Origin: Gammaproteobacteria bacterium
GTDB taxonomy: Bacteria > Pseudomonadota > Gammaproteobacteria > Ga0077536
Length of the DNA: 34,112 nt
Assembly: GCA_030830685.1 (NCBI GenBank)
Contig: JAURMM010000222.1
Coordinates: 1 to 34,112 of the forward strand
Reading direction: 5' to 3'
Of this stretch, positions 21,742 to 29,076 are shown in pieces. Below the pieces are notes generated by a model that was given only the letters and a program-made list of their open reading frames with translations, was not told where the DNA came from and searched no databases. The position numbers and the translations under genes were made by a program. Numbering within the stretch: the stretch's first letter is position 1; every line of letters begins with the position of its first letter.

Positions 21742-22110
21742 TCAGGGTTGCGGCCAGGGTGCGAACAGCAGGCAGACAGGTCCATCGATGCAACGCGTGC
21801 GATGCCCGCGGCCTTCGGTGTCTGCCGGGAGAAACACACCGCCGCGCCGCCAGCGGCGGATTTCGCCGTCGGTAGTCTCCACTTCTAGAATCCCGTCCAG
21901 CACCACTACGATCTGGCGGGCCGGAGCCTGATGCCAGTCCTGGGACATGCCGGCCGGCAACTGCACGAACTGCACGGCAGGCGAGGCCCAGGGCGACGAG
22001 TGGGTGATGGTGTGACCGAAATCATCCTCGCGGGACTGATCGAGCGGAATCTCCAGCTCCGCGAAACGTGAGCCACCATCGGGTGTGGCGTGAAAGGTGA
22101 TGATTTTCAT
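21742..22110 (-). CDS. Cupin-domain protein
   Basis: This single-domain cupin of 122 residues has motif 1 around W59-H60-x5-Q66 and L-D-G-I-L-E-V (E76), and motif 2 in GGVFLPADTEGRGHRTR with His103. The first motif has one clear His instead of the usual two, so metal binding could be weak or different. It has no signal peptide. The start overlaps the stop of the monooxygenase gene by four bases, and its stop is 13 bases from the quinoprotein start. It may be a small-molecule sensor, an isomerase, or an accessory to the oxidation pathway. Confidence 0.75.
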   Translation of the reverse strand: MKIITFHATPDGGSRFAELEIPLDQSREDDFGHTITHSSPWASPAVQFVQLPAGMSQDWHQAPARQIVVVLDGILEVETTDGEIRRWRRGGVFLPADTEGRGHRTRCIDGPVCLLFAPWPQP

Positions 22111-24038
22111 GCGCGTTGAGCCTCCCGGCTGCTGGTGTGGGCTTCGACGTGGTAATCAGCGAGCCGCGCCTCGCGGGTCATACGGTGAAAATCCACGTTG
22201 CGATAAGGCGAGTTCACCACAATGCGCCCACGCGAATTGCGGTAGTAGGTGGTCATGCCCTCATGGGCCCATACCATGTTCGCGTGGGCCGCATCCACGC
22301 CGGCACGATAGGCCTCGAAGACGTCTGTCCGGCATTCCACGGCACCAATTCCCTCGGCACCCATCTTGCGCAGCATGTCCATGATGTAGCGCATCTGCAT
22401 TTCCGCCACCACCATGAAGCTGCCACCGTGCCCAGGCTGCAGATTGGGTCCGTACAACATGAAGAAATTGGGGAAGCCCGGCACCACGGTGCCGAGATAG
22501 GCAGCGGCATTGTCTCCTTCCCAGAAATCCCTGAGCGCTCGGCTATCGCGCCCGAGTATCTCGTAGGTGTTGAGAAAATTGAGAACGTCGAAGCCGGTGG
22601 CAATCACCAGGGCATCCGCGGCATGGCGCGTGCCGTCGGCCGTGAGCACATGGCCTTCGTCCACTTCCGCGATGCGCGTGTCAATCAGGTTCACGCGCGG
22701 ATTCTGCAGCATCCGGTACCAGCCGTTGTCCATCAGCATGCGTTTGCCGAAGGGTGGATAGTCCGGCAACACCTTGGGCAGGAGATCCTGGCGATCTCCG
22801 AGCTGCTCCTTGATGTAGCGGGTGTAGTAAGCCCGATGTGCATCGTTGGTCGCATTGAGCGAACGCTCCGGGTAGGGCCACGCAGGATCCTTCTGCAAAG
22901 TGGCATGCACGCGGTCGTTGATGGTCCAGCCGAGCCGCACGCGATACCAAGCCTGGTACAGCGGTACTTCCTGGATCAGGAACCGCAGCGCCTCTGGCAC
23001 GGGCTTGCGGAATTGCGGGAAAGGCGCGGCCCAGTGAGGTGAGCGCTGGAAAATGGTGAGTGAAGCGACAGCATGCTGGATCTCGGGACCCACCTGCATG
23101 CAGCTCGCGCCATTGCCGATGATGGCCACATGTTTGCCTGCCAGATCGATATCCTCGGGCCATTCGGCTGTGTGGAAGCAGGGCCCCTTGAAGGAGGAGA
23201 GGCCGGGGATCTTCGGCCAGACCGGTGGATTGAAAATCCCTGCCGCACTGATGAGTACATTGCCCGTCAGGACCTCGGTCGTTCCGTCAGGCCGCGTGAC
23301 GGTGACTCGCCAGCATTGGCAGCCCTCGTCATAGCGCGCCGTTTCCACGCGTGTGCTGCAGTGGATGTGTGGCGCGAGTTCGAATTCGCGCGCCACATGC
23401 TGCAGGTAGGCATGCAGGTCATCTCTCAGCGCGTAATAGGTCGGCCAGTCATATTTGGCGAACGAGAACGAATAGAGATGGTTGGGCGTATCGACGCCTG
23501 CACCGGGATAACGGTTCTCCAGCCACACGCCGCCTACGACTTCGTTCTTCTCCAGCACCGTGAACGGTATCCCGGCAGCCTTGAGGTTGACCGCTGCACA
23601 CAGGCCGGAGACTCCGGCACCAATCACCAGGACGTGGAAACCCTCGGGCACGGAGATACGCTCGGAACTGGGCGGCCGATGTCCGAAAAGGTCCCGCGTG
23701 AACTCGCCATATTCTTCGGGCACGGGCTCGCCCATGGCCACCGACAGCATCTCCACCAGCTCTCCGGGACTCGGGTTCGGCATCGCCACTGGCTTGCCGG
23801 CCCGCCAGGCGAGGATGGCCTCGAGCGCCGCAGCCCGGATCTCCTGCTGGATGGCCTCAGGCAGACCGCCCGAATCGTTGTCCCCCAGACCCACACCGCG
23901 TGAGGGCCGGTAGGGGGGCTGCAACCACCGCCCATCCCCGGTGAGCTGGGCCACGACCATCAGCAGGGTCGGGATGTTGGCAGCCGCGACACCTGCGGCG
24001 TAGCGGTCTCGTTCCGGGGTGTGCTGGGCATCATTCAT
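22107..24038 (-). CDS. Baeyer-Villiger monooxygenase, 4-hydroxyacetophenone monooxygenase-like
   Basis: This 643-residue flavoprotein inserts oxygen next to a carbonyl, using FAD and NADPH. An N-terminal helical extension of about 130 residues precedes the FAD Rossmann motif VIGAGVSG (near 138-145). Next come the BVMO marker GGVWLENRYPGAGVD, the fingerprint FKGPCFHTAEWP (F-x-G-x-x-x-H-x-x-x-W-P), and the second dinucleotide site AIIGNGASCMQV. The extension and length fit the HAPMO branch (about 640 residues), which acts on aryl ketones, rather than cyclohexanone-type enzymes (about 540). ATG 24038 has an AGGAG site nine bases upstream; a GTG at 24065 is the alternative. It leads the operon, divergent from rpoH. 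Confidence 0.87.
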   Translation of the reverse strand: MNDAQHTPERDRYAAGVAAANIPTLLMVVAQLTGDGRWLQPPYRPSRGVGLGDNDSGGLPEAIQQEIRAAALEAILAWRAGKPVAMPNPSPGELVEMLSVAMGEPVPEEYGEFTRDLFGHRPPSSERISVPEGFHVLVIGAGVSGLCAAVNLKAAGIPFTVLEKNEVVGGVWLENRYPGAGVDTPNHLYSFSFAKYDWPTYYALRDDLHAYLQHVAREFELAPHIHCSTRVETARYDEGCQCWRVTVTRPDGTTEVLTGNVLISAAGIFNPPVWPKIPGLSSFKGPCFHTAEWPEDIDLAGKHVAIIGNGASCMQVGPEIQHAVASLTIFQRSPHWAAPFPQFRKPVPEALRFLIQEVPLYQAWYRVRLGWTINDRVHATLQKDPAWPYPERSLNATNDAHRAYYTRYIKEQLGDRQDLLPKVLPDYPPFGKRMLMDNGWYRMLQNPRVNLIDTRIAEVDEGHVLTADGTRHAADALVIATGFDVLNFLNTYEILGRDSRALRDFWEGDNAAAYLGTVVPGFPNFFMLYGPNLQPGHGGSFMVVAEMQMRYIMDMLRKMGAEGIGAVECRTDVFEAYRAGVDAAHANMVWAHEGMTTYYRNSRGRIVVNSPYRNVDFHRMTREARLADYHVEAHTSSREAQRA

Positions 24039-24131
24039 CTGCAGGAGCTCCTGACGGGTTGCCACTCAGAGTCGGGGCGCCCCGGATGGTAGCAGGGCAA
24101 TCCGGACGGAGGTGTCTGATTCTTCCGGAAG

Positions 24132-24159
24132 GGAACTGGAACAGGCCTTAGCACTCTAA
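24132..24159 (+). promoter_or_regulatory. Candidate sigma-E promoter of rpoH
   Basis: GGAACTG (24132-24138), a 16-base spacer, and TCTAA (24155-24159) match the extracytoplasmic sigma-E consensus (GGAACTT, about 16, TCTGA) and the GAACTT-16-TCTGA arrangement I recall for E. coli rpoH P3. Transcription would begin near 24166, giving a leader of about 47 bases. The -10 region lies inside the CIRCE dyad. The match is by eye. Confidence 0.5.
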
Positions 24160-24174
24160 TCGATCGAGTGCTAA
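24148..24174. promoter_or_regulatory. CIRCE element (HrcA operator) upstream of rpoH
   Basis: TTAGCACTC, nine bases (24157-24165), then GAGTGCTAA is an exact copy of the CIRCE consensus TTAGCACTC-N9-GAGTGCTAA. HrcA binds this dyad and represses chaperone operons such as groESL and dnaK until heat stress titrates GroEL. Here it lies 38 bases upstream of the chosen rpoH start, across the predicted -10 box and start site, so HrcA binding should block transcription of rpoH. It is 110 bases from the divergent monooxygenase start, so that operon might also be affected. Confidence 0.93.
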
Positions 24175-24212
24175 ACTTGGACACAAGGAATCTGAAGGAG
24201 GCTATGCAAGCC

Positions 24213-25082
<870 letters not shown>

Positions 25083-25836: not shown

Positions 25837-26760
25837 TCATTGCAGCGCGGCTCTCACCAAGGGCTGGTAGTGGTCCACGAAGAGCACCACGAAGAGCGCG
25901 GTCAGATAGACGATGGAGTACTTGAAGGTGCGGTAGGCAAGCTCGTCGCTGTCATCGAACTGCATCCGGATCGCGTAATACAGGAAAATTGCATTGAGGA
26001 CGACCGCGCCGACGAGATACACCAACCCGCACATGTAGGTGGCGAAAGGCAGCAGGGTCGCCGCCACCAGCAGCAAGGTGTAGTAGAGCACATGCTGGCG
26101 CGTGAACTCCGTGCCGTGTGTGATGGGCAGCATGGGCAGATTGGCCTTGGCGTACTCGGCGCGCCGGTAGATGGCGAGCGCCCAGAAGTGCGGCGGGGTC
26201 CATGCAAAGATGATCAGGAACAGCAGCAATGCGTGTGGGTCCAGCGTGCCGGTGACAGCCGTCCAGCCGAGCACCGGAGGAGCGGCGCCGGCAGCGCCCC
26301 CGATGACGATGTTCTGCGGCGTGGCTCGCTTGAGGTACATCGTGTAGATGACCGCGTAGCCAATGAGCGATAAGAAGGTGAGCACAGCGGTCAGGACATT
26401 GATATAGGCGACGAGCAGATACATCGACACGGCACCCAGGACCAACGCGAAGGTCAGTGCCTGCTGCGTGGTGAGCTCACCTTGCGGCAAGGGGCGGTTC
26501 TGGGTGCGCGCCATGAGGGCATCGATCCGGTGATCCGCAACGTGGTTGATGGCGGCAGCGGAAGCAGCCGCGAGACCGATCCCCAAAGTCGCGATCACCA
26601 GCACATCCAGCGGCACCAGGCCCGGTGTGGACAGCAGCATGCCGATGATCGCGGTAAAGACGATCAGGTAAACCACCCGCGGCTTGCAGAGCTCGAGATA
26701 ATCCCGCCAGGTAGCGGCCGCAGCAGGGATTGTCGTATCGGGGGCAGTTGGCTTGGTCAT
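25837..26760 (-). CDS. cyoE: Heme O synthase (protoheme IX farnesyltransferase)
   Basis: This 307-residue inner-membrane UbiA-type prenyltransferase adds farnesyl to heme B to make heme O. The Asp-rich substrate motif [15 protein letters not shown] is present with its typical RPLPQG continuation, followed by the second polar loop around [19 protein letters not shown], and about nine hydrophobic helices. The start ATG at 26760 directly precedes the family sequence [14 protein letters not shown]; the frame upstream overlaps ctaA and is rejected. It lies 14 bases after ctaA, whose product converts heme O to heme A for the oxidase. The name ctaB applies equally. Confidence 0.96.
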
Positions 26761-26774
26761 GATCCTGGGTCCGG

Positions 26775-27764
26775 TCAAGGGCCGCTGGGTCGGGTGTAAC
26801 GGTAGAGAGTAATCACGCTGAGGAGCAGTAAGGCAGCAACGCCGTTGTGCATCACGGCCACCGGCAGGGGAAGGCCTCTGACTACATTGGTAACCCCCAG
26901 CGCTATCTGCACCGAGAGCAGCGCGAGTATACACCACCCGATCGCGCGACCGGCCGTGGGCAGCCGGCGAGTCTGGCGGAAAACCCACAACAGGGTCAGC
27001 AGGATCACGACTGCTCCAAGCCGGTGTGTGAAATGGATGGCGGTGCGCGCCGGCGTCTCCAGGACACCAAACTCATAGTTGATTCCCAGACCTCGCCAGA
27101 GCACGAAGCCGTTCGCGAAATCCATCTCGGGCCACCACAGACCATGGCAACGCGGGAAATCCGTACAGGCCAGGGCGGCGTAGTTGGTGCTGGTCCAACC
27201 CCCGAGAAATGCCTGCAGGAACACGGCGGCCACAGCGAACAGAGCCCAAGGACGCAGGGAGTTCACGGCCGGCATATCCGGGGTAGCGCGGCTCGTGCCA
27301 CCGACTTCCAGCAGGTTCCACCAGAGCAGGGAGAGGAGGGTGAAGCCCCCGAGAAGATGCAAAGCCACCACCAAGGGCTTCAACAGCAAGGTGACTGTCC
27401 ACATGCCGAGCAGCCCTTGGAACATCACCAACGGCACCAGGCTGAGCGCAACCCAGGGCTTTTGCGTGCGTCTTTGCTGCCAAGCCAGCGCGGCCAGCAC
27501 CAGAATCAATGCGCCAAGACCCGAAGCCATGTAGCGATGGATCATTTCGCTCCAGGCCTTGCCTGTTTCCAACGGCCGGGCGGCGAGGCTCTCGGCGTCC
27601 GTAATTTCCTGCGCGGTCTCCGGGACCAGCAACTGGCCATAGCAACCCGGCCAGTCCGGGCAGCCGAGCCCGGCGTCAGTCAGGCGTACATACGCCCCCT
27701 TGACGATCACCGTGAAAGCCAGGAGCGGCAGCAGACAGGCGAGGACGAGATGGAGTTTTCGCAT
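26775..27764 (-). CDS. ctaA: Heme A synthase
   Basis: This 329-residue inner-membrane monooxygenase oxidises the heme O methyl group to the formyl of heme A. Visible signatures are [21 protein letters not shown] at the first periplasmic loop, [15 protein letters not shown] with a heme-ligand His, [42 protein letters not shown], and [15 protein letters not shown]. About eight transmembrane helices in two related halves are apparent, the proteobacterial type. It starts two bases after the end of the thioredoxin-like gene, in operon with cyoE. Confidence 0.96.
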
Positions 27765-27766
27765 GG

Positions 27767-28354
27767 TTACTTGATGGCTGAGGCGCGCAACAGGCGCTTG
27801 AGGTCACGCTGGATGTTGGACAGTTCACCGCTTGCCGCATAGCGCATCATGAGCTGATGCCGCCAATCGACCAGCACGATGGCCGGCAGGGGACCGCTGT
27901 CTCCCGCGGAAGGCAAGCGCTCGGCAAGAAACGCGAGCGTCTCTGAATCCGGGTGGACGCGGGTTGCGTGACGCTCCGGCGCACCGGGCAGCCCGGTAAT
28001 GGCATGGGTGGACACACGCACGCCGCCTTGGCCGATCAGCTCACGGAGCGTCAGGAGATCATCCAGTATCTTGCCGCAAGGCCGTTCCGCGCACGCCTCC
28101 GTTTGCAATAACACCACGGCCCATTCACTGGGTTGCAAGCGGAACAGCGGCGAGAACCCCGGGCGTGCGCCCTCTGTGGATAGATCCAGTGGTGGGTCGA
28201 GCAACTGGCCGCGATGGGTGAGTTCATCTCCGGGCAAGGCGAGTCGGCCGCTGGAGAACAACCAGGCAAGCACGATCGGGCCTACGAAGATGCCGACGAT
28301 GAGCAGCAGGACGAGACGATTACGCGTTCTGGAGATTGGCCTGGGTGAGTTCAC
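27767..28354 (-). CDS. Membrane-anchored thioredoxin-like protein of the oxidase cluster
   Basis: This 195-residue protein occupies the position of an unnamed gene in Pseudomonas oxidase clusters. One helix at about 14-34 anchors a periplasmic domain. The domain runs WAVVLLQTEACAERPCGKILDDLLTLREL, RVSTHAITG, LPAIVLVDWRHQLMMRY, then a final helix, an order resembling a thioredoxin or Sco fold. C88 and C93 form a C-x4-C pair instead of CxxC or Sco's CxxxC. A redox or copper role in oxidase assembly is inference. The start is a GTG overlapping the SURF1 stop by four bases (GTGA). Confidence 0.7.
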   Translation of the reverse strand: MNSPRPISRTRNRLVLLLIVGIFVGPIVLAWLFSSGRLALPGDELTHRGQLLDPPLDLSTEGARPGFSPLFRLQPSEWAVVLLQTEACAERPCGKILDDLLTLRELIGQGGVRVSTHAITGLPGAPERHATRVHPDSETLAFLAERLPSAGDSGPLPAIVLVDWRHQLMMRYAASGELSNIQRDLKRLLRASAIK

Positions 28355-29076
28355 TTGGAAGCATCCCGTCGGAAATTGATCTTGAAGTAGAGCAGCAGCA
28401 ATACCCCCGCCATGGCAAACCACTGGGCGGCATAGGCTTCATGCTTGCCGGTCTGTGCATTCAACACGGGCCAGTTCCGATCGTAGCCGTTCTCTGCATC
28501 CGCACCCAAGAAAAGAACAACCTCCGGGAGGATCGTCTGCAGTCTGTCACCCAGCGCCAGCAGGTCCAGATGCTGCACGCGGTAAAGGGTTTCGTCGGTC
28601 TGTTCAATCATTTGCTGATTGGCGAGCCGGATCCCTGTGCTTGGCGCACGGCCGAGACGTCCCTCCACCCGGCGCGGTTTGCCATCCACCTGCACTTTCG
28701 GCATGCGCGATCTGTCGTCACCCGCGGGGATCCAGCCGCGTGCGACCAGAATGATGCCGCCCTTTTCCAGCTCGAAAGGCGTGAACACGTCATAGCCTGT
28801 CACCCGGTTCCTGACCCGATTGTCGAGCAGGAACTGCGTCTGCCGGTAGCGGCCTTGGAGCTTCGTGGCGCGGCCAATGTTTTCTTCCAGCGCGGTGCCT
28901 TCCAGCCAGTCGAGCACGAGTATGGGTGCATCACGCTGGGCTTCCAGCTCTTCATGCAGCGCCTTTTTCTGGGCGGCCCGATCAAGCTGCCAGAAACCAA
29001 GACTGAGCAACGTTGGAAAAAGTAGAATTACGACTACGGTGGATGCCACGCCCGGGCGGAAACGCCGGGGGCTCAT
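28351..29076 (-). CDS. SURF1-family cytochrome oxidase assembly protein
   Basis: This 241-residue protein has the SURF1 layout: an N-terminal helix (STVVVILLFPTLLSLGFWQLDRA) with the conserved F-W-Q-L-x-R, a periplasmic domain containing GRYRQTQFLLDNRVRNRVTG and ILVARGWIPAGDDR, and a C-terminal helix near YAAQWFAMAGVLLLLYFK with the typical Y-A-x-Q-W. SURF1 helps insert heme A into subunit I. The ATG at 29076 follows a GGGAGTGGG ribosome site; the longer frame would antisense-overlap the DUF2909 gene. It leads the SURF1-thioredoxin-like-ctaA-cyoE-membrane protein operon. Confidence 0.92.
   Translation of the reverse strand: MSPRRFRPGVASTVVVILLFPTLLSLGFWQLDRAAQKKALHEELEAQRDAPILVLDWLEGTALEENIGRATKLQGRYRQTQFLLDNRVRNRVTGYDVFTPFELEKGGIILVARGWIPAGDDRSRMPKVQVDGKPRRVEGRLGRAPSTGIRLANQQMIEQTDETLYRVQHLDLLALGDRLQTILPEVVLFLGADAENGYDRNWPVLNAQTGKHEAYAAQWFAMAGVLLLLYFKINFRRDASK

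Follow-up and report, generated by a model that had tools for sequence, protein, structure and literature searches.

We propose that rpoH, the gene for the heat-shock sigma factor sigma-32, is controlled in this gammaproteobacterial genome by an integrated promoter, in which one HrcA operator (CIRCE) lies over two overlapping start signals, one of the sigma-E type and one of the housekeeping type. From sequence and comparison, we give this reading a probability of roughly 0.78. A first-pass annotation had put forward a combined control of rpoH by HrcA and sigma-E, and this proposal gains support from the presence of hrcA and rpoE in the genome, the conservation of the dyad, and a motif that resembles rpoE promoters in sequence and spacing. 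The annotation overlooked a further candidate element, an extended -10 that spans the right arm of CIRCE and the adjoining bases.

The window, the whole stretch of 34,112 nt that was analyzed, belongs to an assembly of 3.09 Mb in 264 contigs, which is 91% complete. The gene downstream of the dyad had been named as rpoH, and this identity holds: it occupies 24213–25082 on the plus strand and matches TIGR02392 (400.7 bits, cut-off 323.1). Two in-frame ATG codons are found at its 5' end, at 24204 and 24213. The start is more likely to be ATG 24213, because the ribosome-binding site AAGGAGG (24195–24201, plus strand) is just 2 nt from ATG 24204; the Shine-Dalgarno spacing is better for ATG 24213, with which the rpoH starts of relatives also align. 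The upstream gene is divergent (22107–24065, minus strand) and therefore rpoH begins its own transcription unit. Also near rpoH, cyoE/ctaB, a ctaA-like gene and a PA0111-like gene are located on the minus strand at 25837–28423. The ftsX gene does not adjoin rpoH here, whereas it lies beside rpoH in E. coli.

The predicted HrcA operator is a perfect 9-9-9 dyad at 24148–24174, TTAGCACTC-TAATCGATC-GAGTGCTAA, and the exact match upstream of rpoH reported in the first-pass annotation was confirmed, with 0 mismatches. The arrangement that marks members of the HrcA/CIRCE regulon, TTAGCACTC-N9-GAGTGCTAA near the target promoter, is found at rpoH, and this is the sole site with up to 3 mismatches in the window. 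CIRCE-like sites numbered 0 in 100 dinucleotide shuffles of the window and reversed-pattern controls also gave 0, and on these grounds we rejected a chance origin. We also considered CIRCE as an mRNA hairpin, which is unlikely, since each of the two predicted starts falls within CIRCE or beyond it, and no transcript would carry both arms. With neither predicted transcript spanning the whole of CIRCE, it should thus act as a DNA operator.

Both regulators presupposed by the earlier proposal are encoded in the source genome, HrcA (TIGR00331, 331.9 bits, cut-off 197.2) and RpoE (TIGR02939, 242.9 bits, cut-off 236.15). A search of the genome for further CIRCE sites with up to 3 mismatches returned two in total, before rpoH and before groES, and the predicted HrcA regulon therefore consists of groESL and rpoH. 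The groES site is of another kind than the one at rpoH: it is placed behind a CTTGAAA sigma-32-like element and has the right flank TAG. The groES CIRCE sites of the sampled genomes (L002, L234–L266) follow immediately after a sigma-32-like promoter of the CTTGA type, and the imperfect form TTAGCACTACTC...GAGTGCTAA is common to many of those in family f1.

We compared the rpoH upstream regions of relatives, which were available for 52 of 58 sampled genomes. Nearly all of these 52 regions contain CIRCE with intact arms and a differing spacer, and the dyad at rpoH is kept in close and distant relatives alike. Among genomes at least 90% complete, CIRCE is present at rpoH in 34 of 35 with hrcA versus 1 of 6 without, in counts that ignore shared ancestry. 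One relative, G048, has hrcA and no CIRCE at rpoH. In G051 (L074, 97% complete), a CIRCE with 1 mismatch is present at rpoH and hrcA was not found; either the assembly lacks hrcA or another factor reads the site. In G037 (L052), hrcA was not detected and GGGAACTTT...TCTCA is kept at the usual spacing with no CIRCE, a pattern expected after the loss of HrcA. Genera g3 and g5, where RpoE was not found over the cut-off, keep CIRCE and lack GAAC. Thus, each element tends to accompany its own regulator.

These comparisons bear on whether the dyad might be a relic or a product of chance, leaving rpoH outside HrcA control. The binding of HrcA to CIRCE is a prediction, and the G051 site without a detected hrcA would suit a relic. 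However, the CIRCE arms are kept while the spacers vary widely, presence of the site tracks hrcA, and none is expected by chance, making this reading highly improbable. We therefore treat the dyad as a predicted HrcA operator, into which the sigma-E type promoter extends.

This promoter is comprised of a -35 element, GGAACTG (24132–24138), and a -10 element, TCTAA (24155–24159), both on the plus strand and separated by N16 (24139–24154). The GGAAC ends 11 nt before CIRCE, and TCTAA takes its first 2 bases from the end of the CIRCE left arm and the other 3 from the start of the spacer. The second half of the motif thus lies inside the dyad, as had been noted earlier, with its TC being the end of the left arm. 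A sigma-E promoter is recognized by a GGAACTT-like -35 element, a gap of about 16 nt and TCnnA; GGAACTG-N16-TCTAA has this form and the spacing of rpoE promoters.

In shuffled upstream sequence, GGAAC would be found 10–12 nt before CIRCE with a probability of about 0.6%. A single copy here would not suffice, and the element is convincing because it is conserved. Of 46 rpoH sites unselected for GGAAC, 20 have a GGAAC separated from CIRCE by exactly 11 nt, versus 0 of 33 groES/hrcA CIRCE sites from the same genomes, which acted as controls. An A occupies the third position of the CIRCE spacer, the final position of TCnnA, in 23 of 27 rpoH sites with GAAC and in 4 of 19 without (Fisher 1.8e-5, a descriptive value only, since the counts ignore shared ancestry). 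The rpoE promoters of relatives provided a positive control, with a GAAC...TC element in 24 of 30 (chance 7% per region). Of 21 rpoE promoters counted, 20 show a GAAC-to-TC distance of 18, as do 26 of 27 rpoH sites. The sigma-E promoter predicted in the first-pass annotation therefore agrees in sequence and spacing with the rpoE promoters of relatives; the rpoE promoter of the source genome itself lies beyond a contig end.

Of the 35 genomes whose RpoE exceeds the cut-off, 27 have GAAC at rpoH, as does 1 of the 17 others. The remaining 8 RpoE-positive genomes have no GAAC at rpoH, and sigma-E input is therefore not universal. These 8 relatives, of which G001 and G004 are in the same genus, keep CIRCE and a T at +3 after it (discussed below). 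They would fit a reading in which rpoH is governed solely by HrcA and a housekeeping promoter, with GGAAC an inherited remnant or a sequence that sigma-E does not use here. The -35 element, GGAACTG and not GGAACTT, points the same way; it continues with TG, while TT is the commonest continuation among the named-genome matches listed. We consider this reading improbable, since the spacing and the -10 element agree with the rpoE promoters of relatives, the spacer A accompanies GAAC and is not kept without it, and GAAC tracks rpoE. A functional sigma-E promoter overlapping CIRCE is the reading that we carry forward.

The right arm of CIRCE and its flank form TGCTAAACT (24169–24177, plus strand), a predicted housekeeping extended -10 element. 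At rpoH sites this region reads TGCTAAnAT or TGCTAAnCT, which we infer to be a housekeeping (sigma-70) promoter. Relative to TGnTATAAT, TGCTAAACT has the TG and the hexamer TAAACT, which matches at 4 of 6 positions. The TG and TAA belong to the CIRCE arm, and thus the flank bases are the sole independent evidence for the extended -10. Here, a T is found at +3 after CIRCE in 45 of 46 rpoH sites versus 1 of 33 groES/hrcA sites, and in 97% among the named-genome matches listed.

The arm-derived TG and TAA and the 4/6 hexamer would also be compatible with a real sigma-E promoter and operator in which TGCTAAnAT is not a housekeeping element, the basal rpoH start being elsewhere or rpoH being transcribed by sigma-E only. 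The difference at +3 between the rpoH and the groES/hrcA sites speaks against this. Furthermore, the T is retained in all 19 rpoH sites without GAAC, where some promoter must drive rpoH. This alternative is therefore unlikely, although more probable than the remnant and relic readings. We prefer a CIRCE that also seems to carry a housekeeping extended -10 element, so that HrcA would silence both the basal and the sigma-E-driven expression of rpoH, probably by blocking the two promoters.

We propose the following circuit. In unstressed cells, GroEL would keep HrcA active, and HrcA on CIRCE would block both the sigma-E promoter GGAACTG-N16-TCTAA (predicted start around 24165–24167) and the housekeeping extended -10 promoter TGCTAAACT (predicted start around 24183–24186). 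Unfolded protein would occupy GroEL, leading to the release of HrcA and the transcription of rpoH, while envelope stress would provide extra rpoH output via sigma-E. Sigma-32 would then direct the production of chaperones, GroEL included, via groESL. Since groESL also has CIRCE behind a sigma-32-like promoter, the recovery of free GroEL would shut down both rpoH and groESL. Sequence and comparison supply the basis of this model, namely CIRCE, rpoH, hrcA, rpoE, their conservation, the spacing, and the association of sites with regulators. What the model predicts beyond this is that HrcA binds, that transcription starts at the two sites given, that GroEL is required and that the stress inputs are ranked.

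The activating role of sigma-E and the freeing of HrcA by GroEL titration are taken from other bacteria. GroE stimulates HrcA in H. pylori and B. subtilis, and HrcA is known to depend on GroEL in Chlamydia as well as in B. subtilis and Helicobacter; the HrcA sites of H. pylori also coincide in part with core promoter elements and transcription starts (PMC6032397). The operator and repressor are the same as those acting at the groESL and dnaK operons of B. subtilis, H. pylori and others, but the target here is a heat-shock sigma factor and the sigma-E -10 element lies inside the operator. A betaproteobacterial rpoH with a sigma-E promoter is found in Bordetella bronchiseptica, where the fam (rpoH) promoter is transcribed in vitro by SigE; CIRCE is unmentioned in that paper (PMC3490749). 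The E. coli rpoH region contains GAACTT-N16-TCTGA and no CIRCE. Its sigma-E promoter, P3, has an equal -35/-10 spacing and the same target gene but is without CIRCE. To our knowledge, E. coli has no HrcA, and its control of sigma-32 is mainly translational and post-translational.

Among the open full-text papers examined on CIRCE, HrcA and rpoH, we found one report of CIRCE before rpoH, a perfect site predicted at position -51 in Geobacter sulfurreducens (PMC545781, 2004). It resembles the present site in being perfect and in lying near the start of rpoH, but it is a prediction for one genome, that of a Deltaproteobacterium, and no sigma-E element or embedded -10 is described (PMC545781). HrcA is not covered in a survey of proteobacterial regulons (PMC5343134), and nothing on CIRCE at rpoH was found in the Xanthomonas and Mesorhizobium papers examined. 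Thus, separate parts are already known, from the Geobacter CIRCE prediction and the Bordetella SigE transcription, and we did not find the combination of sigma-E and CIRCE, or its breadth, described in the open literature. The CIRCE profiles behind the Geobacter prediction reportedly came from Permina and Gelfand 2003, a work on beta- and gammaproteobacteria that may itself report CIRCE at rpoH.

The predicted CIRCE/sigma-E layout is not peculiar to the source genome; it is found widely among gamma- and betaproteobacteria. When named genomes were scanned for exact occurrences of GGAAC-N10..12-CIRCE, at least 118 matches were obtained in at least 117 stretches. Among the 118 matches listed, rpoH follows directly in 103; for 5 the stretch ends too soon, and 10 lie before something else, several of these listed 10 being in Bacillota. 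Isolates with the layout among the matches listed include Alcanivorax, Dyella, Thioalkalivibrio, Pinirhizobacter and Chromatocurvus from the gammaproteobacteria, and Aromatoleum, Azoarcus, Limnobacter, Pseudacidovorax, Uliginosibacterium and Ferrovum from the betaproteobacteria. In a class-level draw, a CIRCE-like site was found somewhere in 279 of 370 genomes and the strict GGAAC and CIRCE form in 60 of 370, with 0 reversed-pattern matches. All 30 of the 30 class-level strict-form loci examined precede rpoH.

If many gamma- and betaproteobacteria gate rpoH by HrcA, the free GroEL pool would set sigma-32 at the gene level too, and HrcA, sigma-E and sigma-32 would constitute one circuit and not parallel systems. 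The textbook account of sigma-32 rests on E. coli, which is not known to have HrcA. It is quite possible, if still doubtful, that an HrcA-gated dual sigma-70/sigma-E promoter is the ancestral form of rpoH control in gamma- and betaproteobacteria, and that the HrcA-free state of E. coli was derived after the loss of hrcA. The CIRCE palindrome itself would then supply parts of both -10 elements. This ancestral reading fits the hrcA-less G037, since its promoter motif is kept without CIRCE, as loss predicts. The predicted layout is precise to the base, and culturable carriers include Alcanivorax, Dyella, Thioalkalivibrio, Azoarcus and Limnobacter.

Finally, a tandem pair of CIRCE-like dyads is found upstream of rpoH in G045 (L058), G023 (L081) and G009 (L083), which suggests cooperative or double HrcA operators in these genomes.
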